Of a DNA stretch of 22,048 nt, positions 2,794 through 21,132 are shown piece after piece. The notes under the pieces were generated by a model. It was not told where the DNA came from, made no database searches, and was given only the letters and a program-made list of their open reading frames with translations. A program made the translations under genes and the position numbers. The stretch comes from a virus: the IMG/VR virus record IMGVR_UViG_3300032289_002506, positions 1-22,048 of that record; one strand, written 5' to 3'. Positions within the stretch are counted from its first letter, which is position 1, and each line of letters starts with the position of its first letter.

Positions 2794-4386
2794 ATGGGAG
2801 AATTTGATAATAGATTTAGGCCAGCACTTCCGGGGTCTGGTCCATTTATAGCAGAAGTTGTTAAGGTTAACGACCCCACTCTTATGGGAGGAATGCAGGT
2901 TGCTTTAATAAAAAGCATAAAGGTTCCTAACGCATCCCAGTACGGTCATCTTACAGTTAGGTATCTCAGCCCCTTTTTTGGAACTACAAGTCGAAGATTT
3001 GAAGGAAATAATAGCGGAGATTTTAACGACGTTCAAAAAAGTTACGGGATGTGGATGGTCCCTCCTGACCTTGGAACTTTTGTTATGGTAATTTTTATTG
3101 ACGGAGATACAAATCAGGGATATTGGATAGGATGTGTCCCTCAAAATTTTCAAAATCATATGGTTCCAGGTATTGCTGCTAGCACCTATTCTTCTTTAAC
3201 ACCGATACAAAGTAAAAAATATGGAGGGATGACAAATTTACCTGTTGCAGAAATACATAATAAAAGCCAACTTAAAGAAAATCCAAATATTGATTCATTA
3301 AAAAAAGCAGTACATCCTTTTTCTGAAAGACTATTGGCACAAGGATTGCTGAATGACAATATTCGTGGGACTACATCCAGTTCGGCAAGACGAGAAGCAC
3401 CTAGTCAAGTATTCGGAATCAGTACTCCTGGTCCGTTAGATACTGGTTCGGGTGCTCCTCGAAAATCTTTAGATCCTTCTATACCAGTTGCACCTGTTAG
3501 TAGACTGGGCGGAACTACATTTGTTATGGATGACGGTGATGCCAAAGGGCAAAATGAGTTGGTGAGAATTCGTACTAGAACTGGTCATCAAATTTTGTTG
3601 CATAATACACACGATTTGATTTACATCGCTAATAGCCGCGGGACATCTTGGATAGAATTAACCAGCGATGGAAAAATTGATATCTATGCCAAGGATTCGG
3701 TAAGCATTCACACTCAAAATGATTTTAATTTTAGAGCCGACCGAGACATTAATTTAGAAGCAGGCAGAAATATCAATATTCGATCGATTAAAAATATGGA
3801 AACAAATATAGGAGGTCATTATCGGTTTGTAGTGGATAAAGAAGCCAAACTACAATTCAAAAGTACCAAGGACGAAGTTATAGACGATGCTAGTAAAATA
3901 AAAGTTGGTAAAGAAATGAATTTATCAGTATTGGCCGGTCTTAATATTCAGTCAGCAGAAAACATGAATATATTATCAAAAAAAGATATCAAACAAAAAT
4001 CTGAGAACAATTTTGATATTTCAGCCGGCGCTATTATGAGTCAAGGGTCGGGTAAAAACTTTAATATAGCAGTTGATGGAGTGTTAACTGCCAGTGCTCC
4101 TAGTTTGATTAGTTTGGGCGCAGCAGTTATAAATCTTGCAGGAGGCAAGGCTGCAAAACCTACCGACGCAGGGCAAGCCAAAGCAGCTGAACCTCCGACT
4201 ATCCTGTCTCTTTTCAAAGTTCCTAACATTGATACTGAAAAAGGATGGGCAAGTGGTAATTTTTATAAAACAGATGATATTGAAACTATTATGAAAAGAG
4301 TTCCAACACATGAGCCATGGCAGCATCATGAAAGTATTGATTCAACAAAATTCACTCCGTCAAATACAGATTCTTCTGCCAAATAA
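2794..4386 (+). CDS. gp5-like baseplate central spike/hub protein, no lysozyme domain
   Basis: This 530-residue protein is the likely central spike of the baseplate, the trimer that punctures the host envelope. Residues about 16-116 form the OB-fold of the gp5/VgrG family: GPFIAEVVKVNDPTLMGG opens it, and PPDLGTF (90-96), DGDTNQGYW and IGCVP close it. Residues about 120-235 are a linker containing TSSSARRE and FGISTPGPLD. At about 238 GGTTFVMDDGD begins the C-terminal part, followed by a segment with TGHQILLHNTHD. From WIELTSDGKIDIYA (start 286) onward, short repeats such as DINLEAGRNINIRS suggest the triple-stranded beta-helix of the needle. T4 gp5 (575 residues) has a lysozyme domain between OB-fold and helix. 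Here the linker is too short and no Glu/Asp/Thr lysozyme pattern is visible. No Shine-Dalgarno sequence precedes the ATG. The gene is 17 bases behind the hub gene, as expected for partners. Confidence 0.9.
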   Translation: MGEFDNRFRPALPGSGPFIAEVVKVNDPTLMGGMQVALIKSIKVPNASQYGHLTVRYLSPFFGTTSRRFEGNNSGDFNDVQKSYGMWMVPPDLGTFVMVIFIDGDTNQGYWIGCVPQNFQNHMVPGIAASTYSSLTPIQSKKYGGMTNLPVAEIHNKSQLKENPNIDSLKKAVHPFSERLLAQGLLNDNIRGTTSSSARREAPSQVFGISTPGPLDTGSGAPRKSLDPSIPVAPVSRLGGTTFVMDDGDAKGQNELVRIRTRTGHQILLHNTHDLIYIANSRGTSWIELTSDGKIDIYAKDSVSIHTQNDFNFRADRDINLEAGRNINIRSIKNMETNIGGHYRFVVDKEAKLQFKSTKDEVIDDASKIKVGKEMNLSVLAGLNIQSAENMNILSKKDIKQKSENNFDISAGAIMSQGSGKNFNIAVDGVLTASAPSLISLGAAVINLAGGKAAKPTDAGQAKAAEPPTILSLFKVPNIDTEKGWASGNFYKTDDIETIMKRVPTHEPWQHHESIDSTKFTPSNTDSSAK

Positions 4387-4393
4387 ATAAATT

Positions 4394-4822
4394 ATGCCTT
4401 ATAAAAATTTAGAAATTTCGACATCTGAAAACGTAAAATATCAGTCTATAAAAACTGAGCATTTTTATAAAGGGTTTAGTTCAACAGTTCCTGATGGACT
4501 AGGCAGCCGCCTTTATGATTTGGAATTAGTAAAGCAAGATTTAATCAATCATTTTAACACTCGTAAAGGTTCAAGGGTAATGAATCCTAACTTTGGATGT
4601 ATTATTTGGGATCTTTTGATGGAGCCTTTAACAGAAGAAGTAACTGAGGCACTAAGAAATGACATTACTAGAATTTGCAATTCTGATTCTAGAGTAACTC
4701 CTTTACAAATAGATTTATATGAATATGACAGCGGATATATATTAGAACTTAGTTTACAATTAGCCGCAACTGATCAATCTACGCAGTTAGTTATAAAATT
4801 TGACCAACAATTAGGGTTGTAG
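4394..4822 (+). CDS. gp25-like baseplate wedge protein / sheath initiator
   Basis: This 142-residue protein belongs to the GPW/gp25 family, close to the 132 residues of T4 gp25. It sits in the inner wedge and supplies the first strands onto which the contractile sheath polymerises. The family pattern is visible: an N-terminal variable part, LYDLELVKQDLINHFNTRKG, then GSRVMNPNFGCIIWDLL, then MEPLTEE with the conserved Glu-Pro, then a helix ending in TRICNSDSRV and two C-terminal strands (ILELSLQLA, TQLVIKFDQ). It starts 7 bases after the gp5 stop, with no Shine-Dalgarno sequence in the AATAAATT leader, so translational coupling is plausible. Gene order gp5, gp25, gp6 is compact and typical of contractile injection machines. 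Confidence 0.92.
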   Translation: MPYKNLEISTSENVKYQSIKTEHFYKGFSSTVPDGLGSRLYDLELVKQDLINHFNTRKGSRVMNPNFGCIIWDLLMEPLTEEVTEALRNDITRICNSDSRVTPLQIDLYEYDSGYILELSLQLAATDQSTQLVIKFDQQLGL

Positions 4823-4897: not shown

Positions 4898-7800
4898 ATG
4901 ACTATACCTTCAACTAATACCAAATTGCTAATAACAGAAGATTGGAAAAAAATCTACCAATCATTTCGTAATGCTGATTTTAAAAGTTATGATTTTGATA
5001 CACTGCGTCGTGTAATGATTCAGTATCTTCGGGAAAATTATCCCGAAGATTTTAATGATTATACAGATAGTAGTGAATATATTGCATTGATAGATCTAAT
5101 TGCTTTTATGGGGCAAAATTTAAGTTTTCGAATAGATCTTAATGCTCGTGAAAATTTTTTAGAAACTGCACAACGTCGAGATAGTATTCTTAGATTGGCT
5201 CAACTAGTTAGTTATGTTCCTAAAAGGAATGTACCAGCAAGTGGTTTTTTAAAGTTAGTGTCAATCTCTACTACTGACTCGGTTATTGATAACAATGGAG
5301 TTAATTTAGCCAATTCTGCAATTGGGTGGAGTGACAATACCAATCCTAATTGGTATGGACAATTTATTGCAGTTTTTAATTCTTGTTTACCTGATGTTAA
5401 ACTATTCGGGTCTCCTAATGAACGGGCTACTATAAATGGTGTTTTGTGCGAGCAGTACCAGATTAATAGTAGTAATACTGATCTTCCAATTTATGGATTT
5501 TCAAAAAGTATCGACGGAACATCGATGAATTTTGAAATAGTTCCAACGTTTTTTTCTAATCAAACAACTATCCAGGAACAACCTCCGCTACCTGGGAGTA
5601 ATTTTTCTATCTTATATAAAAATGATAATGGTGGTGCTAGTAGCTCTAATACAGGATTTTTTGCTCATTTTAAGCAAGGGGCGATTTCTTTTGTTGATTT
5701 TACTGTTGATATTCCGACTTCAAATCAAATTATAGGTGTTAATACCACTAACATTAATGATACTGATGTTTGGTTGTGGAATTTGGGTCCCTCAGGAAAC
5801 TATTCTACCCTATGGACTAAAACTGACAGTCTAGTAGGAAATAATATTATCTATAATAGTTTAAACAAATCTGTGAGGAATATTTATAGTGTTTCTTCAA
5901 GGGATCAAGATCAGATAGATTTAAATTTTGCAGACGGAGTTTTTGGTAATTTACCTTCCGGTAAATTTAGATTGTTTTACAGACAAAGTAATGGATTGAC
6001 ATACATTATTAAACCTGAACATATGTCTGGTATTGTAATTGATTTGCCCTATAGAAATAAAATTGGTCAAAATCACACATTAACACTAATTTTTGGATTA
6101 CAATATATTGTGAATAATAGTTCGAGTGCAGAATCAAATTCAAGTATTCAATCTAATGCCCCACAATCTTATTATTTGCAAAATAGAATGGTTACTGCAG
6201 AGGATTATAATATTGCTCCTCTTACTAAGTGTGCAGGTATCCTGAAAGTTAAAAGTATTAATCGAGTATCTAGCGGAGTTAGTAAATATTTTGATCTTAG
6301 TGATGTCAGTGGAAAATACAGCAAAACCAATATCTTTGCCTCAGACGGGATTTTATATAAAAATTCTTATGAAGAAATATATGAATTTAATTTTGTTAAC
6401 AGTAATGATGTTTATCGAGTTATAAAACGCGAGTTGCCTAGGATTTTAAAAATTCCATCTTTAAAATCTTTCTATCTGGACAAATATGATAAAATATCTT
6501 TAGAGGGGTTGCAACTAGAGTGGGTACAATCAAATAGGATATCTGGCCAAGGACGAGGTTATTTTACAATTAATAAAAGTGCACAAAGTGTAGGAACATA
6601 TTCTGCAAATAATTTACGATATATAACTGCTCAGTCATTAATTAAATTTGTTCCCCCGGCTGGAAAATACTTTTTACCTAACGGGACTATTGTTCCTACC
6701 CAATCCAGTAAAACATTAAATTATATTTGGGTAAAAGTAATTAATGTAGTCGATGATGGATCTAATTTTGGGTCTGGTACATTGGATGGCGGTGTCGGTC
6801 CGATTGTTCTAAGTGGGTATATTGATTCTACTGCCAGACCAGTTTCTGTAATTCCAAAATTTATCAATGTTTTTTCATCGGCTTTTGAAGACGAGTTAAT
6901 TTCTTTTACTGCTAATAAACGAAATTTTGGAATAACAATTGATCAATATTTAAGAACTTGGAATATTATTGAAGATTTTAATGTTGATTTAATAAGCCCT
7001 TGGAGTTTAAGAAATCAGAGAAATACAGAAAGATTAAACAGAGATTCTAGTTGGATAATTGCATTTTCGTGGACTGGTGTAAATTATAAAATAAGATATC
7101 GATTGGTAGATTTTATTTTTGAAAGTGAAAAAGAAACTGCTTTCTTTATTGATTCTAATTCTGTAAATTTTGATTTTACTTCAAATAAAGTAATTAAAGA
7201 TCAAATAACAGTTTTATCATTTAATTCTTCCTATGATCCTCCGTCCTCAATTAACACCTATACTTTAGGAAGTTTAGGTGGAGACTACCTATGGCAAATT
7301 GACAGTGGATTTATAGAAACGGATGGATACGTGGAACCTGGAAAAGTAAAAATTAGTTTTTATGATTATGATAATATTGGCCAGGTTTTAGATCCTGACG
7401 CATTTAATCGAATTATAGAACCTTTAACAACCAGCACCGTTACTGGATATTACGATAAGTTTGTATATTTTGAAAAATCAGCAGACGGCCGATATCAGTT
7501 AACAGATAGTGAAATGTTTAAATCATATCCTTCTCCTGAGATTGTTCCGGAAGATATGAGAATTGATGGTGACTTGTATTATTTTTATAATGATGAATAC
7601 AATATAGTTACTCGTTATTTGTCTTCAGATGCAACTGATAGTATTAGGTCTCCATGGATATATGAATCAAATTACATTGCATTTCCTGGTAGGAGTAATT
7701 TAAAGTTCCATTACATACACAATAGCTCACAAGAACGACGTCTTGATCCTGGTAAAAGTAATATCATAGATATCTATCTTTTAACTTCATCTTACAATAG

Positions 7801-8335
7801 CAGTTATAGAACTTGGATAAGCACACAGGTAGGTAATGAGCCATTACCTCCCACTATTTCAGAGTTGGAAAGCAATTATTTTGAAACTCTTCAACCAATT
7901 AAAACAATTAGTGATGAGATGGTTTTCCATCCTGCACAATATAAACTTTTATTTGGTTCTTCTGCAGTACCTGAACTGCAGGCTACATTCAAGGCTGTAA
8001 AAAATCCAAATAGAATTATTGGTGATAATAATCTTAAAACAAACATTTTGTCAGCAATTCAACAGTTTTTTTCATTAGACAATTGGGATTTTGGGCAAAG
8101 TTTTTACTTCAGTGAATTATCTACTTATGTAATGAATTTGATGACTCCTGATATTACTAATTTTGTTATAGTTCCGAAGTTTTCTTCAAACAGATTTGGG
8201 AGTTTATACGAAGTTACGTGTTTGACCTATGAAATTTTTATTAGTGGAGCAGGTATAAATGACATTGAAATTATTGATGCTATTACATCAACACAAATAA
8301 AATCTGATTCGATTGTAACAAGTAGTTCTTCATAA
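4898..8335 (+). CDS. gp6-like baseplate wedge protein (baseplate J family), enlarged
   Basis: This 1145-residue protein is the wedge component whose dimers form the inner baseplate ring around the hub. The N-terminus carries the gp6/gpJ signature: NYPEDFNDYTDSSEYIALID, then AFMGQNLSFRIDLNARENFL, then SILRLAQLVSYVPKRN. The J-family hallmark LNFADGVFGNLP is at 342-353, corresponding to the usual FGDG.FG..P. NRMVTAEDYN at 429-438 is the second hallmark. The C-terminal domain typical of T4-like gp6 begins near 1045, with FFSLDNWDFG at 1057-1066, then FYFSELSTYV and FVIVPKFSSNRFG. T4 gp6 has about 660 residues, and the excess lies mainly between about 450 and 1040. No Shine-Dalgarno is seen before the ATG. 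It starts 75 bases behind gp25 and ends 2 bases before the giant gene. Confidence 0.9.
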   Translation: MTIPSTNTKLLITEDWKKIYQSFRNADFKSYDFDTLRRVMIQYLRENYPEDFNDYTDSSEYIALIDLIAFMGQNLSFRIDLNARENFLETAQRRDSILRLAQLVSYVPKRNVPASGFLKLVSISTTDSVIDNNGVNLANSAIGWSDNTNPNWYGQFIAVFNSCLPDVKLFGSPNERATINGVLCEQYQINSSNTDLPIYGFSKSIDGTSMNFEIVPTFFSNQTTIQEQPPLPGSNFSILYKNDNGGASSSNTGFFAHFKQGAISFVDFTVDIPTSNQIIGVNTTNINDTDVWLWNLGPSGNYSTLWTKTDSLVGNNIIYNSLNKSVRNIYSVSSRDQDQIDLNFADGVFGNLPSGKFRLFYRQSNGLTYIIKPEHMSGIVIDLPYRNKIGQNHTLTLIFGLQYIVNNSSSAESNSSIQSNAPQSYYLQNRMVTAEDYNIAPLTKCAGILKVKSINRVSSGVSKYFDLSDVSGKYSKTNIFASDGILYKNSYEEIYEFNFVNSNDVYRVIKRELPRILKIPSLKSFYLDKYDKISLEGLQLEWVQSNRISGQGRGYFTINKSAQSVGTYSANNLRYITAQSLIKFVPPAGKYFLPNGTIVPTQSSKTLNYIWVKVINVVDDGSNFGSGTLDGGVGPIVLSGYIDSTARPVSVIPKFINVFSSAFEDELISFTANKRNFGITIDQYLRTWNIIEDFNVDLISPWSLRNQRNTERLNRDSSWIIAFSWTGVNYKIRYRLVDFIFESEKETAFFIDSNSVNFDFTSNKVIKDQITVLSFNSSYDPPSSINTYTLGSLGGDYLWQIDSGFIETDGYVEPGKVKISFYDYDNIGQVLDPDAFNRIIEPLTTSTVTGYYDKFVYFEKSADGRYQLTDSEMFKSYPSPEIVPEDMRIDGDLYYFYNDEYNIVTRYLSSDATDSIRSPWIYESNYIAFPGRSNLKFHYIHNSSQERRLDPGKSNIIDIYLLTSSYNSSYRTWISTQVGNEPLPPTISELESNYFETLQPIKTISDEMVFHPAQYKLLFGSSAVPELQATFKAVKNPNRIIGDNNLKTNILSAIQQFFSLDNWDFGQSFYFSELSTYVMNLMTPDITNFVIVPKFSSNRFGSLYEVTCLTYEIFISGAGINDIEIIDAITSTQIKSDSIVTSSSS
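5025..5050 (+). other. Strong hairpin inside the 5' part of the gp6-like gene
   Basis: ATCTTCGGGA at 5025-5034 and TCCCGAAGAT at 5041-5050 are a perfect 10-bp inverted repeat with the 6-nt loop AAATTA. Half the pairs are G:C, which stands out in this AT-rich DNA, and the following bases are TTTAATGATT. It lies 127 bases into the gene, within codons for YLRENYPED. It could act as an attenuator or an RNA processing site, or be a by-product of the conserved protein sequence. Confidence 0.5.
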
Positions 8336-8337
8336 TT

Positions 8338-11300
8338 ATGACTAATAAAAAAATTAAAACATTGGATTTTTTACCGGAAATTTTTCAAACTGACAAAAAT
8401 AGTAAATTTTTGTCAGGGACTTTAGACCCGTTAATTCAACCTACACAATTAGAAAGAATTGATGGATACATAGGATCAAAAATCTCACCTAATTTTAAAT
8501 CAACAAGTGATTTTTATATTACTGAAATTTCATCTTTACGTAAAAACTATCAATTAGAGCCTGCAGTAATTATTAAAGATCAATCTGATAATATTAAAAA
8601 TGCAATATCATTTGATGACATAGTAAATGAAATTTCTCAATTAGGGGCAGATACTTCCAATCTTGATCGATTATTTAAATTTGAATATTATTCATATGAT
8701 CCTCATATAGATTGGGATAAGTTTGTAAATTATCAAGAATATTTTTGGTTACCTTTTGGGCCGCAGCCTGTTACTGTTTATAATTCTTCAACTACTGCAA
8801 CAAATGTTACCCAGTCAATAATTGGTCAAAAATTCTATCAGATTCCTAATTCTAGAGAATCATTATCGACTGGAATGAGGATTAAATTTTCAGGAAACAT
8901 TGTGCCTGCCTCTTATTTAAAATCAGAGTATTTTGTTGAGGGAGTAGGATCGAGTATCGAATTAATAGATGTTAATGATTTAACTGTTTATAAAAACGAA
9001 GGTATTTTGGGATATGATTTATTTGATTCTCGTAATTTTGATTTTTATTCTTTTGACAGTTATAAAAATATACCAATACAACCAGAATTTATTACAATTA
9101 ATCGTGCCAGTAGAGATAAAAACCCCTGGTCTCGATATAATAGATGGGTTCATTCTGATGTTATTATTAAAAGTGCAGAAATTAACGGAACCATTCCTGT
9201 TTTTCCTTTAAACAATCGATCTCCTAGACCAATTATTGAATTTAAATCTAATTTAAAATTGTATAATTTTGGTTATGCTGCATATACTTCTGTCGATCTT
9301 ATAGATGAAAAAGTTACAAATGTAATGTTTAACATTCAGGGATCTGATGGCTATTACATTGATGGTGTTTTACTAGATAAAGGTAACAGGGTTATTTTTA
9401 ATGCCGATACTGATCCTGATGTTTGCGGCAAAATCTTCGAAGTAAATTTTGTAAATGTTGGCGGTAAAACGGTAATGGTTTTAGAACCGCCGTCTGACCA
9501 TACACCTAATATTAATTATTCTGTTATAGTTTCTAAAGGAAACAAATATGGAGGCACTAGTTGGTGGTATAACGGAAAAAATTGGCAATTTTCTCAGCAA
9601 AAAACTAAAATAAATCAAGTCCCGTTGTTTGATTTATTTGATAATCAAGGCCGTAGTTACAGTGATCTAAATTTTTATTCATCTGATTTTCGGGGAAATG
9701 CAATTTTTTCCTACGAGATAGGAACAGGATCAAATGACAAGTATCTTGGATTTCCCGTAAAACGTAAAAATTCTAGCGGAACCGGAAGTTTTCTTTTTAA
9801 AAACTATTTTAACGCTGATTCAATTTCGATATCTGAATTACAAACTTTAACAAAAATAAACACATCTAGAACCTTTTGCAAATTTTCTAAAGTAACTGGC
9901 GATGAATTTGTTAATGTTTGGACCACATCATCGACCTATAGATTACCAATCTTACAACTTTATACAACTGATATTTCAACATCTACAATAGAAATTAATG
10001 CAATTGATAACCCTACCATCAATACATTTTCTGTTGAAGTGTTTTTAAATGCTAGCAGATCTTCTTTTGTAGATTATTATACTACTAGTTCAAATGGCAA
10101 AGTATTGGTCCAATTTCTAAATCCTCTTCCTGCCGATACTGATGTAGTTCTAAAAATAAAAACTGATGTTTCATCTAATTCAAATGGATATTATGAAATA
10201 CCACCGAATTTAACAAATAATCCTTTAAATGGTCTTCTGTCGGAGATTTCGTTTACAGAAATAAATGATCATGTCTGGTCAATTTACCAATCGGTTCCTA
10301 ATTTTAGTGGAAAATTTCCTGGAAAAAGTAATTTGCGAGATTTAGACACAGTAGGTAATCATGGAACCAAACTGATTTCAAATCCAAATTCACTAGCATT
10401 TTCTAGTATTTTTATTGGTAAAAAAGAACACAATTTTTTTGATGCTATTAAAAAATCTGCAGATCAATACAATCAATTTAAATTGTCTTTTCTACAATAT
10501 TTAATTTCACTTGATCAAGGAACTACCCCGTCAGATGCAGTTGATATAATATTAAAGGAAATAAATTTTAATAAAAATTTAAATTCAAATTACTATTTTT
10601 CAGATATGCTAGCATGTAGCATTGACTATGACGAAAAAATATGGACAATTCAAAATTCCCAGATAAAATACTATCCAATTAATTCTGTTTTTTATCCCAA
10701 TAAGTTATCTTACAGAACTATTTTAGTTTACTTAAATGCAAATTTATTAACTTTTGAAGTTGATTATGAATTTGATACAATTGATTCTCAAATAGTTTTA
10801 TTAACGAATATTTCAGTAGGTGATACTTTAACAATTAGAGATTATGCAGATTCTCGAGGATCCTATATCCCACCGACTCCGACAAAATTGGGATTATATC
10901 CAAAATTTGTTCCTAAAATTTTTATTGATAATACTTACAAAATAGATAAAACAGTAATTCAAGGGCACGATGGTAGTATAATGATCGCCTACAATGATTA
11001 CCGTGATAATATTATTCTTGAATTTGAAAAACGAGTTTATAATAATATTAAGGCAAGTTACAATTCAAAATTGTTTGACATAACATCTTTCCTTCCTGGT
11101 AAATTTAGATCTACTGCATATTCTACTACCCAAATAAATCAAATTTTAAAAAATAGTTTTATAGCATGGGCAGGTGAATATAAAATTGATTATCTGACAA
11201 ATAATTCAGTTGACGAAAATTCTCCATTTACATACAACTATTCGGTTTCAAATACCGGCAATTCTTTAGAGGTTACAGGTTCTTGGAGGGCAATTTATAA

Positions 11301-14300
11301 ACATTATTATGATACAGATCGCCCGCATACACATCCATGGGAAACGCTAGGGTTTTCTATGAAGCCTTTATGGTGGGATAGTCAATACGGACCCAATTAT
11401 TCATCTACTAATACCGCTCTTTGGAATGATCTCGAGCAAGGGAGAATTCGACAAGGTCCTAATGCTGGAATTAATAGTGTATATGCACGACCGGGATTAT
11501 CTTTAGTTTTACCGGTTGATACTTCGGGTAGACTACGAGATCCTATTACAATAGGATTGGCTAGACTTTCTAATGATATTTCTAGAAATTGGGAATTTGG
11601 CGAATTTAGTCCTGTAGAAGTATCTTGGCGTAAAAGTAGTTATTGGCCGTTTGTTGTTCAACAATTAATGGCATTACTAGCACCATCTATGTACCTATCT
11701 TACATGCATGATCCTATTAGGATTCGTAAAAATCTAGTAAATCAATGGGTGTATGATGATACTTCTTATTTCCCAACAATTCAAACAGCATTTATTCACA
11801 GGGAAAATGATCAACAAACCAGTGGATTTAGTGTTTTTATTAGTGAAATTGGTTGTCAAAGAGATGAAAATTACATTTCATCATTAAGATCTGATCTAAA
11901 TTATTTGAGTGTTAATTTATTTTATAAAGTAGGTGGTTTTGTAAGTAAAGATAAATTACAAATTTCAATGGATACCGGTAGCATCGGTTCGTTATCGTCT
12001 AACACAATTATTCCTAGAGAAGATTTTTCATTAATACTACATACAGGCACTCCAGTTAAATCAATTTCTATGTCTGGAATTGTTGTTGAAAAACATCTTG
12101 ATGGTTTTCTTGTAAGAGGATATGATAATTTAAATCCTTTTTTTAACATATATAATACTATTCGCAATGAAAATACTTCATTGTTAACAGTTGGCGGAAC
12201 AAGCGAGTCTTATGTTGTTTGGACCAATGGAGGGGACTCCGGAGTAGATTTAGGATTAAGTAGTGCTGATACAACTTCGGCTAGTTCGGCAGTTGTTGGG
12301 AAGTTTTATCAAGCAGGCCAACTTGTAAAATACGGAGATTCTTTTTATAGAGTTTTAACCAGTCATCAAGCCGGCTCATCCTTTGAGCCAAATTATTTTC
12401 AATTAGTTAGATCTGTTCCTATTACTGGTGGAATATCTGTTCAAATTTCTCCCAATTTTAACAAAGAAATAGTAAAAATATCATACGGGACCATACTTTC
12501 TACACCACAAGATATATACGATTTAATTGTAGGGTATGGTGCTTGGTTAAAAGATCAAGGATTTTCATTTAACGAATATAATCTAGATTTAAAAACAACA
12601 TTAAATTGGGAATTTTCTGCAAAGGAATTTTTATTTTGGGTGTTACAAAATTGGTCTTTAGGAAGTGTTATTGTTCTTAGTCCATTTTCTAATCGAGTTG
12701 AATTTGATTCTTCTTTCGCAATTTCTGATAGTTTTTTTAATAATCTTTACAATAACCTTATTCTTGATGCAACAGGTAATCAAATACCCAAAGTAAATCT
12801 TAATATAACAAGATCAGATAATAATTTACTAGTTGAAACTTCTAATTTTAATTTAGGAATATTTTTTATAAAAATCAATACTATACAAAAAGAACATGCA
12901 TTGATTTTTAATAAAACCACAATCTTTGGGGATTTCATTTACAATACTGAAACAGGATACCGGCAGAGCCGAATGAAATTAACTGGATTTAGGACAAAAA
13001 ATTGGAATGGAGATTATTTTAGTCCTGGATTTACCTACGATAATGTAACAATTTCTAATTGGACACAATATACGGATTACATCTCGGGAGATGTTGTTAA
13101 GTTTGGTAACGAATATTATAGTGCAATCGATAAGATTTTTGGAAATAGTACTTTTAACTTTGAAGAATGGAATAGGTTATCTTCAAAACCTGAAAAATTA
13201 TTGTTGCCCAATTTTGATTATAAAATAGGACAGTTTGAAGATTTTTACAGTCTTGATATTGATAATTTTGATGTTGCACAACAAAAAATGGCCCAGCATC
13301 TAATAGGATATACTCCTAGAACTTATCTTGATAATATTTTTCCTAACCCTATTAGTCAATATAAATTTTATCAAGGATTTATAAAAGAAAAAGGAACTGA
13401 AAGCGCTATTGATAAATTAAACAAGGTTGAAAATTTTGGAAGGCAAGGAGAAATTTCTTACCAAGAAGAATGGGCTTTTAGAGAAGGAAGTTATGGGTCT
13501 TTTCAAACATTTAATGAATTAGAAACTACTCTAATTGAAGGATCGTTTGTCGACAATCCTCAAATTATATCATTTGTTGATACAATTCCTAATTCTAATA
13601 AATTAATAAGTTACAGTACCTCTGGAAATTGGATAATAACACCGAGTAATTACATCGCATCGTCATCATTCCCTGTAACATCTTTTCCTTATTCTCAAGT
13701 TGATTTTAAATTAGAAACAGCAGGATATGTTGATATCGGTGATGTTAGTTTCACAGCATTCAACGAAAATAGTTTATTAGATATTGCAGATAATTCTACT
13801 ATTAATGAGGGAGATACTTTTTGGTTAGGTTTTTCAACTAATAATGATTGGGATGTTCTTAGATATACACAACTATCAAGTATTATAAATGATATTTCAA
13901 TCGCCGAGAATGGATCTTCTTTAGTAATTACTACCTCTTTGCCACATTATTTACTAGAAGAAGATATTATATCAATAATTCAATCTGATGCTTCAGTAAA
14001 TTCAATATACAAGGTAGAGTTTGTTTTAAATGAATATCAATTTTCAATAAGTACAACCGACACTATCCAAGAGTTGACCATTTCTAATTATGGCATACTT
14101 TTTAAGTTTTTTAGTTTTAAATTTGAAACTTTTGATCAAATTCTGGGCGACTATGATTTGATAAAATTGCCTGTCGGAACAAAATTTTGGATTAATAATA
14201 ACGATTTAGGTAAATGGGTAGTTTATCAAAAGTCTGATAACTATTCATATGTTTTCGAGAAGACTTACCCGGTTCCAGTTTTACATACCGGGCTAGGAAA

Positions 14301-17300
14301 AAAACTTTATAAAAATAAAAATTTTAATAGAATATTTTCTGGGTCCCCTCAATTCCAAAGTGATACAACGTATGGTAAGGTATATGTATATACCACTTTA
14401 CTTGATACGCCAGATTTGATTTCAAATTTTTCTTTTTCGTTAAACGATTTTATCAACATTTACACTTCCTCTACAACAACATCAACTGATTTTGGAAGTT
14501 CGATAGCATATGATCCTTCGCAAAGTTTAATTTATGTAGGTGCACCTTCGGCCGGATCTATGAAAATTAATACATCAGGGGCGGGTGTATTGCGATTTAC
14601 AACAGGAACTGAGTCAGTTTATTCGACTCTAACACAAGAAGGTGTTGTAAAAATTAGTGCATTAGATCCTACTAACAATGAAATTCCTAAACTTGGTTTG
14701 TTAAGTCCGTATTCAAAAAACTTTGAAAGATTTGGAGAAAGTGTTTTTGCACAACAAAATAACCTATTAGTAGGTGCACCGGGAACATTAACGACCGGCA
14801 CAGGCGCTGTTTACTTGTTTACTGTTACTACTACATCTACCACTGCTCCTCTTTATATAACATATGTTAACTCGTTAACTACTTCGACATTGTTAGTAGG
14901 TAGTCAATTTGGGTATAGCATTAGTGGAACTGCTGATTCGGGACTGGTTGTAATTGGCTCTCCTGGGTATAATTTAGAAACTGGAAAAGTTTATATCTTT
15001 ACAGGAACTAATGCGCAATTCTCTCAAACAATTGATTCACCATTTTCCATTAATTCTAGATTTGGCGAAAAAGTTTTTCTAACATACGACGGTAATTATT
15101 TGATGGTATCTGCTCCAACAGTAATTAATTCTGACAAATCTTATGGACAAGTAGCAATTTATAGTGCGACTAGTAACGGTTTTATTTTAGACCAAATACT
15201 ACCCAATCCAGTACCGGGATCTAATTTATATTTTGGTACTGATATCGGTTCTAATTCATCTGGTACGATTTTAGCCATTTCTGCAACAGGTAAGATAACC
15301 GGTGTTCGAACAGTGTTTGACGATGTTAGTCAACTGTTAGATACAACGACATTTGATTCTGTTTCTACAATTTTTTACGATGTAATCCTCGATTCCGGTA
15401 CAGTCTACATATACAATAGAAAACTAAGACGATTTGTTCTTTCGTCGGAACTTCCACCGCCTGTTAGAGATTCTAGCACTAATTATGGATCCAGCATTAT
15501 AGTAGAAGATGAAGCAATATATGTTGGGGCTCCTGCAAACGATGTAACTACATTAATTTCTCCACAACTTTTTCAATTTACTAAAGTAGATAAAAGTTTT
15601 GATAGTTGGGAAATATTACATCAACAACCAGATTTGGTGGTGGTTGATACTATTCAGAAGATATCATTAATTGATTCCGACAGTGAAAATGTTATTGAAT
15701 ATCTTGATGTTATTGATCCTTTAAAAGGAAAAATTGCAGGAATAGCCGAACAAGAATTGCATTATAAGTCTGCCGTTGATCCAGCAGTGTATTCAATTGG
15801 TATACCTGGAAATATTATTGACCCTGCCACTAATTGGCTTGATGAACATGTTGGAGAATTATGGTGGGATTTAAGTTCAATTAAATATCAATGGTATGAG
15901 CAAGGAGATTTAATAAAAAGAAAAAATAACTGGGGTAAGTTGTTTCCTGGATGTACGATTGACATTTATGAATGGGTAAAAACTCAATATTTGCCAAGCG
16001 AATGGAGTGCACTTGCTGATACAGCACAGGGGATAATTCAAGGTATAAGCGGGCAGCCAAAATTTACTGATGACACAGTGATCTCGGTTAGACAATCTTA
16101 TGATTCGATATCAAATACGACTAGTTTTGTTTATTATTATTGGGTAAAAAATAAATCTATAACTCCGGATGCTAAGAACAGAAGAATTAGTGCATTTGAA
16201 GTCAGTTCTATTATTACAGACCCTACAACATATGGATTAAAATTTGCTGCAATCTTGTCTAGCAATTCAATAGCCTTATCTAATTTAGGGGGTTATTTAA
16301 TAAATGACAGAATTAGCCTAAATATTTCTTTTGATTTAATTAATAATCCTATTTTAAAACATACCGAATGGATTTTACTACAAGAAAAATTTGCTAATAG
16401 TCGACCGTCTAGATTATTAGAAAAAAAACTTGTAGACAGTTTAATAGGAAAAGATGAATTTGGAAATTTAGTTCCCGATCCTAATTTAAATGGAAGGTCT
16501 AAATACGGAGTTGAAATTCGACCGAGGCAGACTTTTTTTAAAAATAGATTATCGGCTCTTCGAGAAATTATTACATTTACAAATAAAATATTATTATCGA
16601 ATCGTATTACAGGTACACATGATTTTAAAAATTTAAATCAAGAAGAAAAAATCTCTGATTTACTTTTAAATGAATATGATTTAATAGTAGAAGATACATC
16701 ATATCTTGAACTAATTGACTTGTTTAATGTCCAGGCACCTAAACTTGAATGCATTGTTGTTAACGGAAAAATTGTTGATGTGTCGATACCTTTATCAGGG
16801 AAGGGATATAAAACAAACCCAACAATTAAAATTATCAGCGACTCGGGATCGGGAGCAGTAGTTAAAACAAATATTAATGATGTTGGACAGATAGTTTCAA
16901 TTGAGATTGTTAATCCTGGTCAAGGTTATTCTGATGATAATCCCCCAGAGTTAGATGTTCGTCCATTTACAGTTTTAGTATTATCAGATATTTTTGGAAA
17001 ATGGTCTAAATTTATCTACGATATTCAAGAAAAGAAATGGGTTCAATCTCATACTCAAAAATATAATACCAAATTATATTGGAAATATGTAGATTGGGTC
17101 AGTCCATCATTTAACCGACAAATTAAATTTTCTACTATAATAAATTATTCCGCAGATGCAGTTTCTTCCAATATTTTACCGGGGCAATACGTTAAAGTTA
17201 AAAATGACGGTCTTGGCAATTATTTAATACTTGAAAAAACAGAACCTGGAAGTTGGGGTTCTTTTAGCGAAAACTTTAATATTGTTTATGCTGAAAATGG

Positions 17301-20300
17301 TACAATACAGATATTGGACGAAATTTGGAATTTAGAAATTTCTAACTATAATTGGGATCAAAATTTATCTTATGACATTGGACTTTATAGTCCAACTCCA
17401 GATGTAGAACTTAGGTATATTTTATCAGCACTAAAAAATGATATTTTTACTAATGAATTAAAAATTTATTGGAATTTACTTTTCTTTAATGCGGTAAAAT
17501 TTGCGTTAACTGAGCAGAAACAATTAAATTGGGCATTTAAAACTTCTTTTATTAGTGTAGTAAATACCGTTGGAGAACTGTCTCAACCTTATACTTATAA
17601 TTTGATTTCAGATGTTGCACAAGAAGAATATTTAAAAGAAATTAAACCCTTTCATACAAAAATTAGAAAATTTACTAACAACTATACAAAATTAGAAATT
17701 TCAAAAAATCAAATCATTGAAACTTGTCAACCTTCCATAACTTTAAAATTTGATAGAGTTGCTAATTTTAATCAAATAGGCGAAGATAAAGTTATTGATC
17801 GATTTATTCTTTCTTTATATCAAAATTCTGTTGTTTTAAATTGGATCGCTCATCCAGATAAATCTAAAATAAGAGTAACTCTTAATGGATTTTTGATTTT
17901 AGGATATCAATACAAGTTAGAATATTTTAGTAATGAATACAACGGTTATGATAAAAAATTCTCTAGAATTATTTTATTAGAAAATATTCCAGATACTAGT
18001 GGTCAAGTATTACAGGTTGAATACCAGAAACATATTGATTTAAAAACTTCATCGGAAAGAATTTTAAGTTATCATGATAATAAAAATTTAAATCAGATAA
18101 TAGGGGGATTTGTATATCCGAAAACTAAAATAGAAACTCTCCCATTGGTGCGATCTGTGAATTGGGATTCGAATAATATTGGTTTTGGTGATTTTAAATG
18201 GAATGATAATATTGATAGTTACACTGTGGCATATTTAACTAGTGCTACAATATCATTCGATATGGAATTGACCCTTAGCACTGTAACTGGTATTAAAGTT
18301 GGGGATTATATTAATGTAATAAGTAGGAAAACATCTTCCTTTTCTACTCTTACTGATATAATTGTTTCGTCTATTGATACTCTTACCAACACAGTGGGGT
18401 TGAATAGTCCTCCGATTGTTACGTTATCTTCTGGCACAATTGTAGAATTTTGGTCAAATAAGCCGTATGATACTACACTCGATAGTGTCATTGACGGAAG
18501 TACATTGGAAAATACATTAACTGAAATTCTTTTAGATGGTGATAAGTTTTACACCCCTAATACCAGTTATGCTCCTGAAGAATTTGTTCCCGGTCAGTCT
18601 TCTGACTCTATTGGAATTAATGTTTTTACAAAATACGGTAAATCTTCCCCTATTATAAATACTGGCGGTTTGTATATCACTAAAAATAGATCAACAAGTA
18701 CAGTAAAAATTCCCTTATCAGTAATACCTACGGTAAATGATGAAATTTCTGTTTTGTTTAATAATACATTTTTACCAAAATCATCAATTGCTATTAAGGC
18801 CGATTCAAACAATCAAGTCTGTATTTTTACTGAGTTGTCAACTTCGTCGTTTGGTTTAATCTCTTACACAGTTATAAATATTGGCGGAGGGTCGACTAGT
18901 AATAACGGGATAATTGATAAAGTTACTCTTTCTCAAACACTAACTGGTAATGATCCGGTAATGACACTCGAAAGTCTTTCGGACTATCGAACTGTTTCGA
19001 GTGCATATGTTTCTCTTGATGGGATAGAAGTTCCTCTTGAAGGCACAGTGCCTTCGTCCGCATTATCATATAATTTGACTTATTCTTTTTCTGGAACTAA
19101 TTACAGATCTGCAGTTAAATTTAATAATATTACACCGGGTCAACATTTGGGTCAGGCCTGGTTTTTTGATTCGTCATTTGATGATTTTAGTATCCTAAAG
19201 AATCAATCAGTTACTATTACATCTTCAACTCAAACTTCTATTCTTTTAACAAATCTTGTACCGGGGATAAATGAAAATCAACTTAGTTTAGTTACAGTAG
19301 AGCAAACATCTAACGGAGTTCTAAAAAGGCTACAACCACCTCGTATAACTCATTACATCGTATCTAATTCAAATTTAAATTTTTTAATTAGTAAAACTAT
19401 TGTTAGACCATCCGGAACTTATACACTATCTAATAATTTGATTAGGGTATATGTAGACAATAAAAAACTAATACCTGGACCTGAATTTCTAATTAATCAA
19501 ACGAATAATTCAATAATACTCTCGCCTTTCGTAGCAACCAATGGGAGTGAGGTAGCCATTGTTGATCTTCTTTCAACATGGGATTATGATGTTGTTGATA
19601 ATACTGTAAAATTATCATCGCCGGTTGTCCCGTCAACTCTCAATATTTTAACTTTTTTAAGTAATAGTAAAATGTCTACAACTATGGAAAGTTTTGATGG
19701 GAATTCAACTAATAGGTTTAAATTATACAAGTCTGTAAATAATGTTCGATATGTGTGGGTAAGTATAAATGGACTTCCCCTTGCCGCTGAAATAGACTTT
19801 AATATACTCGATGATGGGTCAACTGTTCAAATAAGTGATAATTTTAGAATTAGTCCTCAAGATAAAATTGTAATTCGAATAATAAGCGACCAGTCTGAAA
19901 TTTCCTCTGTTTTGGGCTATCGAATTTTTAATGATGTTGTTAATAAAACATCTTTTAAGAGAATATCGAAGAAAAATACTGCAAGATTAGTTGCACCATT
20001 AACTTATTTAGATACTGAAATTTTCTTAGATGATGCAAGTGTTCTTTCGATACCTGATCCTAGTGATAGATCGGCGGGACTAGTGATGATTAATGGTGAA
20101 CTTATTCAATATCAGAGGATTGATCGAAATGTACTTAAAGATTTAACCCGAGGGGTATTTGGAACATCACCGAGTTTGTATTCAGACGTGTCTACAAAAG
20201 TTATTGATCAAGGGCTAAACCAGACAATTCCATTTAGTGAAAACACACTGATACAAAAAATAAAAACTACTTCGACCGTAAATGTTTATACAATTTTAAC

Positions 20301-21132
20301 GTCGAGCACTATCGCCAATGACGGAATAATACTGTCCTCCGTATTGCCTTTAACTGATCAAGTTCAGGTAATTTATGGTGGGAGATTATTGAGAAAATCT
20401 GAAATGCTGTATCATGATACTACGCTATCTTATGATAGTCCTATAGCAAATATAAAAGGTAAAAGAGCGTCTATTAATGATTTTACCAATATCAATAATA
20501 TCGATCCGGCAAATTTAAATGATGCATATATTTTTACTTCCACTAATCAAGTTTGGGTATATACTAATTCGTCGGAAACAGATGCCATTAAAGGTTATGT
20601 TTATAGGGGATTGAACTATTCACCGCCTGAGTTTAATATTACTGTTGAATTTAACACAGCAACAGCAGCAATTTATGCTACTACTGCTACAATGATGGCA
20701 GTTGGGACAATATCACAGGATCTTAATTATGATCTAAACGGTGATGGGGTGGTTACCTTAACTGATGCTTTGGGATATTTAAAAATTTCTCTTAAAAAAT
20801 CTTCTGAGTCAATTCAAGATATTTTAGATTTTACTATTAATCCTCAGTCGAACTATCAAAACCTTATTTCTCAAAAAATTCTATTAAATATAGAAGGAGG
20901 AATAGATGATAACATTGATCTGATCATAATGAAAAAACAATTTAATTCTAATTCTTTATGGAATAATGGAGTGTCATTATTACAAAGTCAAACAATCCCG
21001 GCTAAGTTTTTGCAGGACGAACCTTCAGAATTGCCAGATATTACTTACTATGGTGGATATAAAAATCTTTCTCTTGATACAGGGTTTTATCTTACCACCA
21101 GTACCGATCAACCCCTACTAGTAGGACCTTAA
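8338..21132 (+). CDS. Giant 4264-residue baseplate/virion structural protein (gp7 position) with adhesion-type modules
   Basis: This single open frame has no stop or frameshift and encodes a protein of roughly 475 kDa. No Shine-Dalgarno is seen; the start is 2 bases behind the gp6 stop, so re-initiation is likely. The N-terminus (TLDFLPEIFQTDKNSKFLSG, then IDGYIGSKI) looks like a wedge-type attachment region. Modules seen in order are: aromatic GTSWWYNGKNW (407-416), a block PHTHPWETLGF...MKPLWWDSQYG (about 995-1017) that I recall from other giant marine phage proteins, CBM5/12-like motifs (1322-1357 and 1575-1614), FG-GAP repeats (2002-2399), a duplicated GxGY unit (2821-2874), a NGELIQYQRI...LTRGVFGTS unit (3919-3944), six 'NG..L' beta units, and a dockerin-like calcium loop (4132-4143). 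No enzymatic active site, signal peptide or membrane segment is apparent. T4 gp7 (1032 residues) links wedge parts, and equivalence is inferred from position only. A tape measure is unlikely because the protein is beta-rich and not helical. Confidence 0.8.
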   Translation: MTNKKIKTLDFLPEIFQTDKNSKFLSGTLDPLIQPTQLERIDGYIGSKISPNFKSTSDFYITEISSLRKNYQLEPAVIIKDQSDNIKNAISFDDIVNEISQLGADTSNLDRLFKFEYYSYDPHIDWDKFVNYQEYFWLPFGPQPVTVYNSSTTATNVTQSIIGQKFYQIPNSRESLSTGMRIKFSGNIVPASYLKSEYFVEGVGSSIELIDVNDLTVYKNEGILGYDLFDSRNFDFYSFDSYKNIPIQPEFITINRASRDKNPWSRYNRWVHSDVIIKSAEINGTIPVFPLNNRSPRPIIEFKSNLKLYNFGYAAYTSVDLIDEKVTNVMFNIQGSDGYYIDGVLLDKGNRVIFNADTDPDVCGKIFEVNFVNVGGKTVMVLEPPSDHTPNINYSVIVSKGNKYGGTSWWYNGKNWQFSQQKTKINQVPLFDLFDNQGRSYSDLNFYSSDFRGNAIFSYEIGTGSNDKYLGFPVKRKNSSGTGSFLFKNYFNADSISISELQTLTKINTSRTFCKFSKVTGDEFVNVWTTSSTYRLPILQLYTTDISTSTIEINAIDNPTINTFSVEVFLNASRSSFVDYYTTSSNGKVLVQFLNPLPADTDVVLKIKTDVSSNSNGYYEIPPNLTNNPLNGLLSEISFTEINDHVWSIYQSVPNFSGKFPGKSNLRDLDTVGNHGTKLISNPNSLAFSSIFIGKKEHNFFDAIKKSADQYNQFKLSFLQYLISLDQGTTPSDAVDIILKEINFNKNLNSNYYFSDMLACSIDYDEKIWTIQNSQIKYYPINSVFYPNKLSYRTILVYLNANLLTFEVDYEFDTIDSQIVLLTNISVGDTLTIRDYADSRGSYIPPTPTKLGLYPKFVPKIFIDNTYKIDKTVIQGHDGSIMIAYNDYRDNIILEFEKRVYNNIKASYNSKLFDITSFLPGKFRSTAYSTTQINQILKNSFIAWAGEYKIDYLTNNSVDENSPFTYNYSVSNTGNSLEVTGSWRAIYKHYYDTDRPHTHPWETLGFSMKPLWWDSQYGPNYSSTNTALWNDLEQGRIRQGPNAGINSVYARPGLSLVLPVDTSGRLRDPITIGLARLSNDISRNWEFGEFSPVEVSWRKSSYWPFVVQQLMALLAPSMYLSYMHDPIRIRKNLVNQWVYDDTSYFPTIQTAFIHRENDQQTSGFSVFISEIGCQRDENYISSLRSDLNYLSVNLFYKVGGFVSKDKLQISMDTGSIGSLSSNTIIPREDFSLILHTGTPVKSISMSGIVVEKHLDGFLVRGYDNLNPFFNIYNTIRNENTSLLTVGGTSESYVVWTNGGDSGVDLGLSSADTTSASSAVVGKFYQAGQLVKYGDSFYRVLTSHQAGSSFEPNYFQLVRSVPITGGISVQISPNFNKEIVKISYGTILSTPQDIYDLIVGYGAWLKDQGFSFNEYNLDLKTTLNWEFSAKEFLFWVLQNWSLGSVIVLSPFSNRVEFDSSFAISDSFFNNLYNNLILDATGNQIPKVNLNITRSDNNLLVETSNFNLGIFFIKINTIQKEHALIFNKTTIFGDFIYNTETGYRQSRMKLTGFRTKNWNGDYFSPGFTYDNVTISNWTQYTDYISGDVVKFGNEYYSAIDKIFGNSTFNFEEWNRLSSKPEKLLLPNFDYKIGQFEDFYSLDIDNFDVAQQKMAQHLIGYTPRTYLDNIFPNPISQYKFYQGFIKEKGTESAIDKLNKVENFGRQGEISYQEEWAFREGSYGSFQTFNELETTLIEGSFVDNPQIISFVDTIPNSNKLISYSTSGNWIITPSNYIASSSFPVTSFPYSQVDFKLETAGYVDIGDVSFTAFNENSLLDIADNSTINEGDTFWLGFSTNNDWDVLRYTQLSSIINDISIAENGSSLVITTSLPHYLLEEDIISIIQSDASVNSIYKVEFVLNEYQFSISTTDTIQELTISNYGILFKFFSFKFETFDQILGDYDLIKLPVGTKFWINNNDLGKWVVYQKSDNYSYVFEKTYPVPVLHTGLGKKLYKNKNFNRIFSGSPQFQSDTTYGKVYVYTTLLDTPDLISNFSFSLNDFINIYTSSTTTSTDFGSSIAYDPSQSLIYVGAPSAGSMKINTSGAGVLRFTTGTESVYSTLTQEGVVKISALDPTNNEIPKLGLLSPYSKNFERFGESVFAQQNNLLVGAPGTLTTGTGAVYLFTVTTTSTTAPLYITYVNSLTTSTLLVGSQFGYSISGTADSGLVVIGSPGYNLETGKVYIFTGTNAQFSQTIDSPFSINSRFGEKVFLTYDGNYLMVSAPTVINSDKSYGQVAIYSATSNGFILDQILPNPVPGSNLYFGTDIGSNSSGTILAISATGKITGVRTVFDDVSQLLDTTTFDSVSTIFYDVILDSGTVYIYNRKLRRFVLSSELPPPVRDSSTNYGSSIIVEDEAIYVGAPANDVTTLISPQLFQFTKVDKSFDSWEILHQQPDLVVVDTIQKISLIDSDSENVIEYLDVIDPLKGKIAGIAEQELHYKSAVDPAVYSIGIPGNIIDPATNWLDEHVGELWWDLSSIKYQWYEQGDLIKRKNNWGKLFPGCTIDIYEWVKTQYLPSEWSALADTAQGIIQGISGQPKFTDDTVISVRQSYDSISNTTSFVYYYWVKNKSITPDAKNRRISAFEVSSIITDPTTYGLKFAAILSSNSIALSNLGGYLINDRISLNISFDLINNPILKHTEWILLQEKFANSRPSRLLEKKLVDSLIGKDEFGNLVPDPNLNGRSKYGVEIRPRQTFFKNRLSALREIITFTNKILLSNRITGTHDFKNLNQEEKISDLLLNEYDLIVEDTSYLELIDLFNVQAPKLECIVVNGKIVDVSIPLSGKGYKTNPTIKIISDSGSGAVVKTNINDVGQIVSIEIVNPGQGYSDDNPPELDVRPFTVLVLSDIFGKWSKFIYDIQEKKWVQSHTQKYNTKLYWKYVDWVSPSFNRQIKFSTIINYSADAVSSNILPGQYVKVKNDGLGNYLILEKTEPGSWGSFSENFNIVYAENGTIQILDEIWNLEISNYNWDQNLSYDIGLYSPTPDVELRYILSALKNDIFTNELKIYWNLLFFNAVKFALTEQKQLNWAFKTSFISVVNTVGELSQPYTYNLISDVAQEEYLKEIKPFHTKIRKFTNNYTKLEISKNQIIETCQPSITLKFDRVANFNQIGEDKVIDRFILSLYQNSVVLNWIAHPDKSKIRVTLNGFLILGYQYKLEYFSNEYNGYDKKFSRIILLENIPDTSGQVLQVEYQKHIDLKTSSERILSYHDNKNLNQIIGGFVYPKTKIETLPLVRSVNWDSNNIGFGDFKWNDNIDSYTVAYLTSATISFDMELTLSTVTGIKVGDYINVISRKTSSFSTLTDIIVSSIDTLTNTVGLNSPPIVTLSSGTIVEFWSNKPYDTTLDSVIDGSTLENTLTEILLDGDKFYTPNTSYAPEEFVPGQSSDSIGINVFTKYGKSSPIINTGGLYITKNRSTSTVKIPLSVIPTVNDEISVLFNNTFLPKSSIAIKADSNNQVCIFTELSTSSFGLISYTVINIGGGSTSNNGIIDKVTLSQTLTGNDPVMTLESLSDYRTVSSAYVSLDGIEVPLEGTVPSSALSYNLTYSFSGTNYRSAVKFNNITPGQHLGQAWFFDSSFDDFSILKNQSVTITSSTQTSILLTNLVPGINENQLSLVTVEQTSNGVLKRLQPPRITHYIVSNSNLNFLISKTIVRPSGTYTLSNNLIRVYVDNKKLIPGPEFLINQTNNSIILSPFVATNGSEVAIVDLLSTWDYDVVDNTVKLSSPVVPSTLNILTFLSNSKMSTTMESFDGNSTNRFKLYKSVNNVRYVWVSINGLPLAAEIDFNILDDGSTVQISDNFRISPQDKIVIRIISDQSEISSVLGYRIFNDVVNKTSFKRISKKNTARLVAPLTYLDTEIFLDDASVLSIPDPSDRSAGLVMINGELIQYQRIDRNVLKDLTRGVFGTSPSLYSDVSTKVIDQGLNQTIPFSENTLIQKIKTTSTVNVYTILTSSTIANDGIILSSVLPLTDQVQVIYGGRLLRKSEMLYHDTTLSYDSPIANIKGKRASINDFTNINNIDPANLNDAYIFTSTNQVWVYTNSSETDAIKGYVYRGLNYSPPEFNITVEFNTATAAIYATTATMMAVGTISQDLNYDLNGDGVVTLTDALGYLKISLKKSSESIQDILDFTINPQSNYQNLISQKILLNIEGGIDDNIDLIIMKKQFNSNSLWNNGVSLLQSQTIPAKFLQDEPSELPDITYYGGYKNLSLDTGFYLTTSTDQPLLVGP
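8390..8416 (+). other. Perfect 11-bp hairpin near the start of the giant gene
   Basis: CTGACAAAAAT at 8390-8400 and ATTTTTGTCAG at 8406-8416 pair perfectly around the 5-nt loop AGTAA. The hairpin begins 52 bases after the start codon, in the codons for QTDKNSKFLSG. The C:G, G:C closing end plus a run of A:T pairs gives a moderately stable stem. Its place just inside the largest gene suggests a translational or transcript-level control element. Chance remains possible in AT-rich DNA. Confidence 0.5.
12301..12408 (+). other. First CBM5/12-like motif in the giant protein
   Basis: Residues 1322-1357 read FYQAGQLVKYGDSFYRVLTS followed by a Phe-Glu-Pro and NYFQL. This matches the skeleton of small chitin-binding type 3 (CBM5/12) modules: Y..G..V.y.g..Y.......p....W..l. 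The last aromatic is Phe instead of Trp and the leading Trp is absent, so binding is uncertain. Confidence 0.4.
13060..13179 (+). other. Second CBM5/12-like motif in the giant protein
   Basis: Residues 1575-1614 contain W1575, Y1578, Y1581, G1584-D1585, V1587, Y1593-Y1594, A1596 and a closing EEWNRL with W1611. This spacing, W..Y..Y..GDvV.fg..YY.A......(n).W..l, is the CBM5/12 pattern with both Trp residues kept. These modules usually bind chitin or related glycans. The motif is visible, and glycan binding here is inference. Confidence 0.5.
14341..15534 (+). other. FG-GAP repeat region, probable seven-bladed beta-propeller
   Basis: Within the giant protein, FG-GAP type repeats (as in integrin alpha chains) recur. 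FG/GAP pairs are at F2052-G2053 with GAP 2068-2070, F2132-G2133 with GAP 2146-2148, F2191-G2192 with GSP 2207-2209, F2242-G2243 with SAP 2258-2260, F2299-G2300 with SAT 2315-2317, and Y2383-G2384 with GAP 2397-2399. A further GSP at 2002-2004 followed by GKVYVYT fits the end of a first blade. Strands such as GKVYIFT, GQVAIYS and GAVYLFT follow the GAP positions, as expected. Seven units of about 50-80 residues fit a closed propeller. Confidence 0.7.
16798..16959 (+). other. Duplicated GxGY beta module in the giant protein
   Basis: GKGYKTNPTIKI (from G2821) and GQGYSDDNPPELDV (ending V2874) are 40 residues apart and flank GSGAVVKTNINDVGQIVSIE. This 'GxGY..~P.v.i....G.GA.a...v..G.v..i.v.n.GxGY' unit is common in phage tail-fibre and baseplate proteins and probably forms a small beta repeat. 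Confidence 0.6.
20731..20784 (+). other. Dockerin/EF-hand-like calcium loop near the C-terminus of the giant protein
   Basis: Residues 4132-4149 read DLNGDGVVTLTDALGYLK. This matches the dockerin type I / EF-hand loop D.N.DG.v...D with calcium ligands at D4132, N4134, D4136, T4140 and D4143, followed by the start of a helix ending in LK. A degenerate second copy may lie at 4182-4202 (NIEGGIDDNIDL, then IMKKQF) but lacks ligands at loop positions 1 and 12. Calcium binding is inferred from the motif. Confidence 0.6.
21114..21126 (+). promoter_or_regulatory. Shine-Dalgarno AGGA inside a 12-bp palindrome before the collagen-like gene
   Basis: AGGA at 21123-21126 lies 8 bases before the ATG at 21135 and supports that start. 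It overlaps the perfect palindrome CCTACTAGTAGG (21114-21125) at the end of the giant gene. Pairing between transcripts or within the palindrome could hide the ribosome site. The four preceding starts lack any such site. Confidence 0.45.

Follow-up and report, generated by a model that had tools for sequence, protein, structure and literature searches.

What does an integrin-like propeller do in the middle of a giant virion protein that is encoded beside baseplate wedge genes? The DNA analyzed here, called the window, is IMG/VR record IMGVR_UViG_3300032289_002506, which comprises 22,048 bases of an uncultured giant phage. Our preferred reading, to which we assign a probability of about 0.6, is that a Ca2+-free integrin-type propeller is inserted in the gp6-adjacent giant and forms a projecting head, for which attachment to a host ligand is the likeliest role.

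Gene Order and Identity of the Giant Protein

The window contains a run of baseplate-like genes that leads into the giant protein:

89–2776, hub-like virion protein (phrog_11190)
2794..4386, plus strand, gp5/VgrG-like spike protein (phrog_13211, “baseplate hub subunit and tail lysozyme”, 2.7e-48)
4394..4822, plus strand, gp25-like baseplate wedge protein (PF04965, 39.2 bits; phrog_43)
4898..8335, plus strand, gp6-like baseplate wedge protein (phrog_10646, “baseplate wedge subunit”, E 1.3e-277)
8338..21132, plus strand, giant virion structural protein with the propeller, 4,264 aa (phrog_10938, 1053 bits)

The spike gene (2794..4386) also gives weak Pfam matches to DUF2345 and Phage_base_V, and the gp6-like gene stops 2 bases short of the start codon of the giant. 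A collagen-like ORF (21135–22046) with glutamine-rich GXY repeats begins 2 bases past the giant and is incomplete at the window end; its product is possibly a fibre. No tRNA or Rfam RNA was found within the window.

Jumbo phages have few virion proteins as large as the gp6-adjacent giants. The giant belongs to PHROG 10938, “virion structural protein”, and its profile match is spread over four stretches. Its conserved region matches 60 phage records at about 22–31% identity, nearly all of them jumbo myophages of the RaK2/121Q/CBB/PA5oct/SCTP-2/Atu_ph07 type. The giant likewise lies after a gp6-like gene in the relatives inspected, with gp25 ahead of it where annotated, and the annotation of the PA5oct homologue, gp355, records its detection by ESI-MS/MS. 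On the grounds of the PHROG match, the gene order in relatives, and this annotation, the giant is accepted as a virion protein. No function for the gp6-adjacent giant family was found in this analysis.

Synteny makes the giant a likely component of the baseplate wedge. A reading made from the sequence alone (hereafter, the sequence-only reading) had placed the propeller in a wedge protein; the part that stands is a virion protein encoded after gp25- and gp6-like genes, but homology to T4 wedge proteins does not accompany it. Indeed, homology to T4 gp6, gp7, gp8, and gp10 was undetected in the giant (hhalign probabilities <1%; each target was a single T4 sequence). For the 170 conserved aa at the N terminus, Pfam, NCBIfam, and the PDB gave no match, and the AlphaFold2 (AF2) model of the N-terminal segment is of low confidence (pTM 0.33) and uninformative as to a wedge assignment. 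The candidate assignment of this segment as a gpI/gp7-like module was dropped for the same reasons.

The giant could instead be a protein of the tail surface or of whiskers that is encoded beside gp6, in which case the propeller would be a tail decoration. The missing homology to T4 wedge proteins fits this explanation, as do the PHROGs category of family 10938, “head and packaging”, and the whisker-like structures of two related jumbo phages, CBB (PMC5259590) and Atu_ph07 (PMC6102473). Yet the window and its inspected relatives share the order gp25-gp6-giant, and we consider a tail decoration improbable.

Two further matches below the respective cut-offs were observed in the giant. A CBM_5/12-like stretch lies in its conserved part (window 12298–12390, aa 1321–1351; 22.3 bits vs a cut-off of 26.2), and a Dockerin-like/EF-hand motif (DLNGDGVVTLTD) lies near its C terminus (window 20728–20784, aa ~4131–4149; Dockerin_1 18.8 bits, under the 22.9 cut-off).

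FG-GAP Repeats and the Predicted Propeller Fold

The propeller occupies the middle part of the giant, with the following limits and blades:

14287..15627, plus strand, seven-bladed integrin-type (FG-GAP_2) β-propeller, aa ~1984–2430 (AF2, PDB fold matches, FG-GAP_2)
14287..14427, plus strand, blade 1, aa 1984–2030, leading GSP...GKVYVYT unit (blade HMM 10.3 bits; AF2 strands)
14485..14703, plus strand, blade 2, aa 2050–2122, with a ~32-aa loop after the second strand (blade HMM 10.5 bits; AF2)
14716..14877, plus strand, blade 3, aa 2127–2180 (blade HMM 31.9 bits; AF2)
14902..15036, plus strand, blade 4, aa 2189–2233 (blade HMM 42.6 bits; AF2)
15058..15204, plus strand, blade 5, aa 2241–2289 (blade HMM 43.1 bits; AF2)
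15226..15453, plus strand, blade 6, aa 2297–2372 (blade HMM 9.2 bits; AF2)
15487..15627, plus strand, blade 7, aa 2384–2430 (AF2 strands 455–498 of the model)

FG/YG...GAP-like pairs begin at giant residues 2052, 2132, 2191, 2242, 2299, and 2383, and they are interspersed with the strands GKVYVYT (2013), GAVYLFT (2156), GKVYIFT (2216), GQVAIYS (2270), and GTVYIYN (2354). The sequence-only reading had described six FG/GAP pairs and a leading GSP...GKVYVYT unit between residues 2002 and 2399, and all were found in their places. These limits are too narrow at both ends, as they leave out the initial strands of blade 1 and the final two of blade 7; the wider limits listed above follow the predicted strands, with closing strands at aa ~1957–1966 and ~2423–2431. 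A regular expression for the FG/GAP pair found six pairs in residues 2002–2399, and the ~3,750 aa of the giant beyond the domain contain none; shuffles of the region (n = 2,000) gave a mean of 0.18 pairs and a maximum of 3.

Profile searches identify the same repeats. The Pfam model FG-GAP_2 (PF14312) scores 29.6 bits on the isolated domain, above its 23-bit gathering cut-off, and 22.3 bits on the whole giant, slightly under it. Among the homologous segments, 32 of 34 are matched by FG-GAP_2 at E ≤ 0.01, with a best E value of 8.5e-27; PF01839, the other FG-GAP model, has no match in the window. A blade HMM derived from the family picks out six blades in register. Since its training drew partly on blades 3–5, blades 1, 2, and 6 are those with independent HMM support. 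Blade 7 is not significant by this HMM (−2.2 bits). A TTFD..ST.F hairpin in blade 6 is conserved in the alignment of relatives.

For aa 1932–2440, an AF2 model was made with an alignment, A2, in which the window segment and its IMG/VR homologues make up 34 sequences. The model has a mean pLDDT of 85.4 and a pTM of 0.88, and its secondary structure consists of seven successive four-stranded groups with the FG/GAP positions in register. When the model was searched against the PDB, the top 50 matches were all integrin α chains (best 9dia, E 1.6e-15), with TM-scores of about 0.58–0.68 (~0.65 by target for propeller-sized chains) and rmsd values of 5–6 Å. The A2 profile, a sequence-only query, likewise retrieved integrin α-4 at E 6.4e-17, followed by α-6, α-M, and α-IIb. 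An integrin-type seven-bladed propeller, as had been proposed from the repeats, is therefore borne out by both the predicted fold and the profile search against FG-GAP and integrin α families.

It is very improbable that these repeats form separate β domains, or fewer blades, in place of one closed integrin-type ring. The blade HMM does miss blade 7, and the TM-scores to integrins are moderate at the rmsd values given above. However, seven groups of four strands are predicted, and the model aligns to integrin propellers over its full length; neither separate β domains nor fewer than five blades, the outcomes named beforehand as speaking against a propeller, were predicted. The pTM of 0.88 and the full-length fold matches suggest that the ring closes.

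The likeness to integrins has a limit. In metazoan integrins three to four Ca2+-binding loops are present, and bacterial integrin-type propellers, which also exist, carry one per repeat (PMC3192720). No integrin-type Ca2+ loop (DxDxDG-type) was found in the window propeller, and across the 34 propellers there is one such motif, a dubious one. Because these loops are absent practically family-wide, the propeller resembles integrins in its fold and cage motif, not in metal binding. A Pfam scan of the full giant gave no integrin stalk (thigh/calf) domains; the sequence of the phage giant protein continues on both sides of the propeller.

Insertion Site, Clade Distribution, and Loss

The propeller sits between conserved blocks of the giant and separates two strands of one conserved domain:

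14206..14235, plus strand, host-domain entry strand KWVVYQKS, aa ~1957–1966 (sequence comparison; AF2 strands 30–34 and 38–45)
15604..15630, plus strand, host-domain exit strand SWEILHQQP, aa ~2423–2431 (sequence comparison; AF2 strand 493–498)

As a single-sequence query against IMG/VR, the propeller gave no match, and relatives were gathered instead with the flanking conserved regions as queries. The best 80 of 595 IMG/VR relatives were used; they were picked by similarity to the window giant, and the sample is biased accordingly. A tree was built from the conserved upstream region of the giant (77 rows). Within these best 80 of 595, an uncultured clade (SH-aLRT 98) has 66 members, and 65 of them carry FG-GAP blades at the site.

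The sole exception, locus L010, is sister to the propeller-bearing L007 with a support of 100. Here the whole ring is missing, and the strands KWVVYQK and SWEILHQQP are retained close together. Because L010 is nested among propeller carriers, it is read as a loss; most simply, the propeller was lost cleanly. No other FG-GAP gene is present in its 19.9 kb locus.

Cultured phages fall outside the propeller clade, and the giant is without blades in all cultured relatives examined. Apart from Atu_ph07 and Phosso, cultured relatives have 120–510 aa without blades at the site. Atu_ph07 (L020:14494–19134) and Phosso (L024:14530–19152) have ~1,530 aa of repeats there, of the type GxGY..P.V.x.GGG.

In 26 relatives (among the best 80 of 595), a further ~550–900 aa are nested in blade 2 behind its second strand, where the window has the ~32-aa loop. 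The carriers include L080, L071, L081, and L106 (e.g., L106:13499–17704), together with 22 other loci. In animals, α-I domains are inserted between integrin blades 2 and 3 (PMC3192720). The nested phage segment resembles an α-I domain in principle, but it lies inside blade 2 and in a different loop.

CBM5/12-like pieces occur within the propeller region of some relatives, most of those examined closely being under the cut-off, and the propeller interval of Salicola phage SCTP-2 (L019:16210–16995) has a weak LamG/concanavalin A-like match (15.3 bits, E 0.023, below the cut-off).

Proposed Role as a Binding Head

Most likely, the propeller ring would form a head of its own that projects from the scaffold of the baseplate, since its two ends adjoin and its loss leaves the scaffold undisturbed. 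One face of the ring would then attach, by its loops, to a ligand on the host surface, with a glycan or a surface protein as the probable partner; host attachment is the likeliest of the roles considered. As the insert is found in dozens of environmental relatives and was apparently lost in one, the propeller is probably a peripheral host-attachment head. Its location at the baseplate edge, its outward exposure, and its ligand binding are what we infer here.

The corresponding ring of integrins contributes to the recognition of ligands (PMC3192720). For most pairs of relatives, the phage propeller is more diverged than the scaffold and has more length changes, with identities for propeller vs scaffold of, for example, 45% vs 68% in L036/L038 and 38% vs 56% in L096/L107. 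This faster divergence may lend indirect support to a binding role, together with the CBM5/12- and LamG-like pieces, the Atu_ph07 protein gp320 described below, and the propellers of phi11 and PhiKZ gp131, which are placed where the phage meets its host (PMC4901313). The closest pairs behave differently, with propeller vs core identities of 76% vs 80% in L005/L012 and 99% vs 89% in L032/L033. The latter values may point to recombination of the propeller between close relatives. Such conservation in the closest pairs is unlike a fast-evolving receptor-binding tip and counts against a binding head.

The propeller might alternatively be an architectural platform, whose faces dock fibres or baseplate proteins, such as the collagen-like protein encoded just after the giant, with no host contact. 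In integrins this ring is also used as the interface to the β subunit (PMC3192720), the collagen-like ORF follows the giant closely, and in the closest pairs the propeller is conserved at a level equal to or above that of the core. Nevertheless, the clean loss in L010 and the absence of the propeller from the giants of cultured relatives show that baseplate assembly is independent of it, and in most of the more distant pairs the propeller outpaces the scaffold in divergence. We regard a platform as rather unlikely and retain the host-attachment head.

A more tentative extension, possible though doubtful, is that the giant offers a cassette site for adhesion heads. The propeller, carried at this site by one large uncultured clade and with the α-I-like nesting in a sub-clade, would in that case give the baseplate a built-in second head for receptor binding, separate from the tail fibres. 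A separable integrin-type head that is present in one clade and was cleanly lost once provides a concrete, testable idea of host contact.

Comparison with Known Propellers

The sequence-only reading knew of no description of such a domain. In literature on FG-GAP with baseplate, phage genomes, and cyanophages, no FG-GAP propeller inside a gp6-adjacent giant was described; for this setting the claim stands, but free-standing FG-GAP proteins and PhiKZ gp131 precede it. We found no description of a ring inserted in a gp6-adjacent giant, its clade-wide presence, its single clean loss, or the domain nested in blade 2. Novelty is limited by what is already known, namely free-standing integrin-type phage propellers and the baseplate propeller of PhiKZ gp131.

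Among members of the same family, RaK2 ORF070, 121Q gp582, and PA5oct gp355 (PHROG 10938) share family and gene position with the window giant, but they are shorter (~3,330–3,860 aa) and have no propeller at the site.

Free-standing propellers are found in related jumbo phages. Atu_ph07 gp320, annotated as “hemagglutinin”, adjoins a tail-sheath gene and matches the A2 profile with a probability of 98.2% (hhalign, E 6e-14). Hemagglutinin gp213 of Sinorhizobium jumbo phage AP-J-162 was reported in 2024 to be similar to human integrin 3VI3 (PMC11242549), and two FG-GAP proteins of ~400 aa (XYS97288 and XYS97289) are encoded by Sinorhizobium phage Phosso. These Polybotosvirus-type hemagglutinins carry a homologous propeller; unlike the built-in propeller of the window, they are separate ~400-aa genes in a tail gene cluster. 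The gp6-adjacent giants of Atu_ph07 and Phosso have no FG-GAP blades. Phosso also encodes two adjacent “hypothetical” giants of ~3,160 and ~3,690 aa (L122:1839–11327 and L122:11401–22479, minus strand) with ~35 or more FG-GAP_2 matches, which are apparently strings of several propellers. Since none of 50,697 phage records was matched at E 0.01 by tblastn with the window propeller or the propeller of one relative, the free-standing phage propellers were found only by profile or fold. A viral fold library contains further FG-GAP proteins, in uncultured Caudovirales and in many large eukaryotic viruses.

According to PMC4901313, the C-terminal seven-bladed propeller of PhiKZ gp131 (PDB 4GBF) lies at the baseplate periphery, and receptor binding has been suggested for it. 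PhiKZ is a jumbo myophage, and the window propeller is proposed to be, like that of gp131, a seven-bladed ring at the baseplate edge. However, gp131 belongs to another phage lineage and is another protein, and it is not among the sequence matches or top fold matches of the window domain. The receptor-binding protein of phage phi11 is trimeric, with a five-bladed propeller platform and proposed GlcNAc binding (PMC4901313). It is likewise a propeller within a baseplate host-recognition protein, but its five blades are closest to glutamine cyclotransferase, whereas the window propeller is seven-bladed and integrin-like.

The nearest fold and profile matches are the integrin α-subunit propellers, which are seven-bladed FG-GAP rings as well. 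They carry Ca2+ loops, whereas the phage propeller is devoid of them and lies mid-chain in a virion protein. With this propeller, a phage baseplate would be a further setting in which the fold of the integrin head has been reused.
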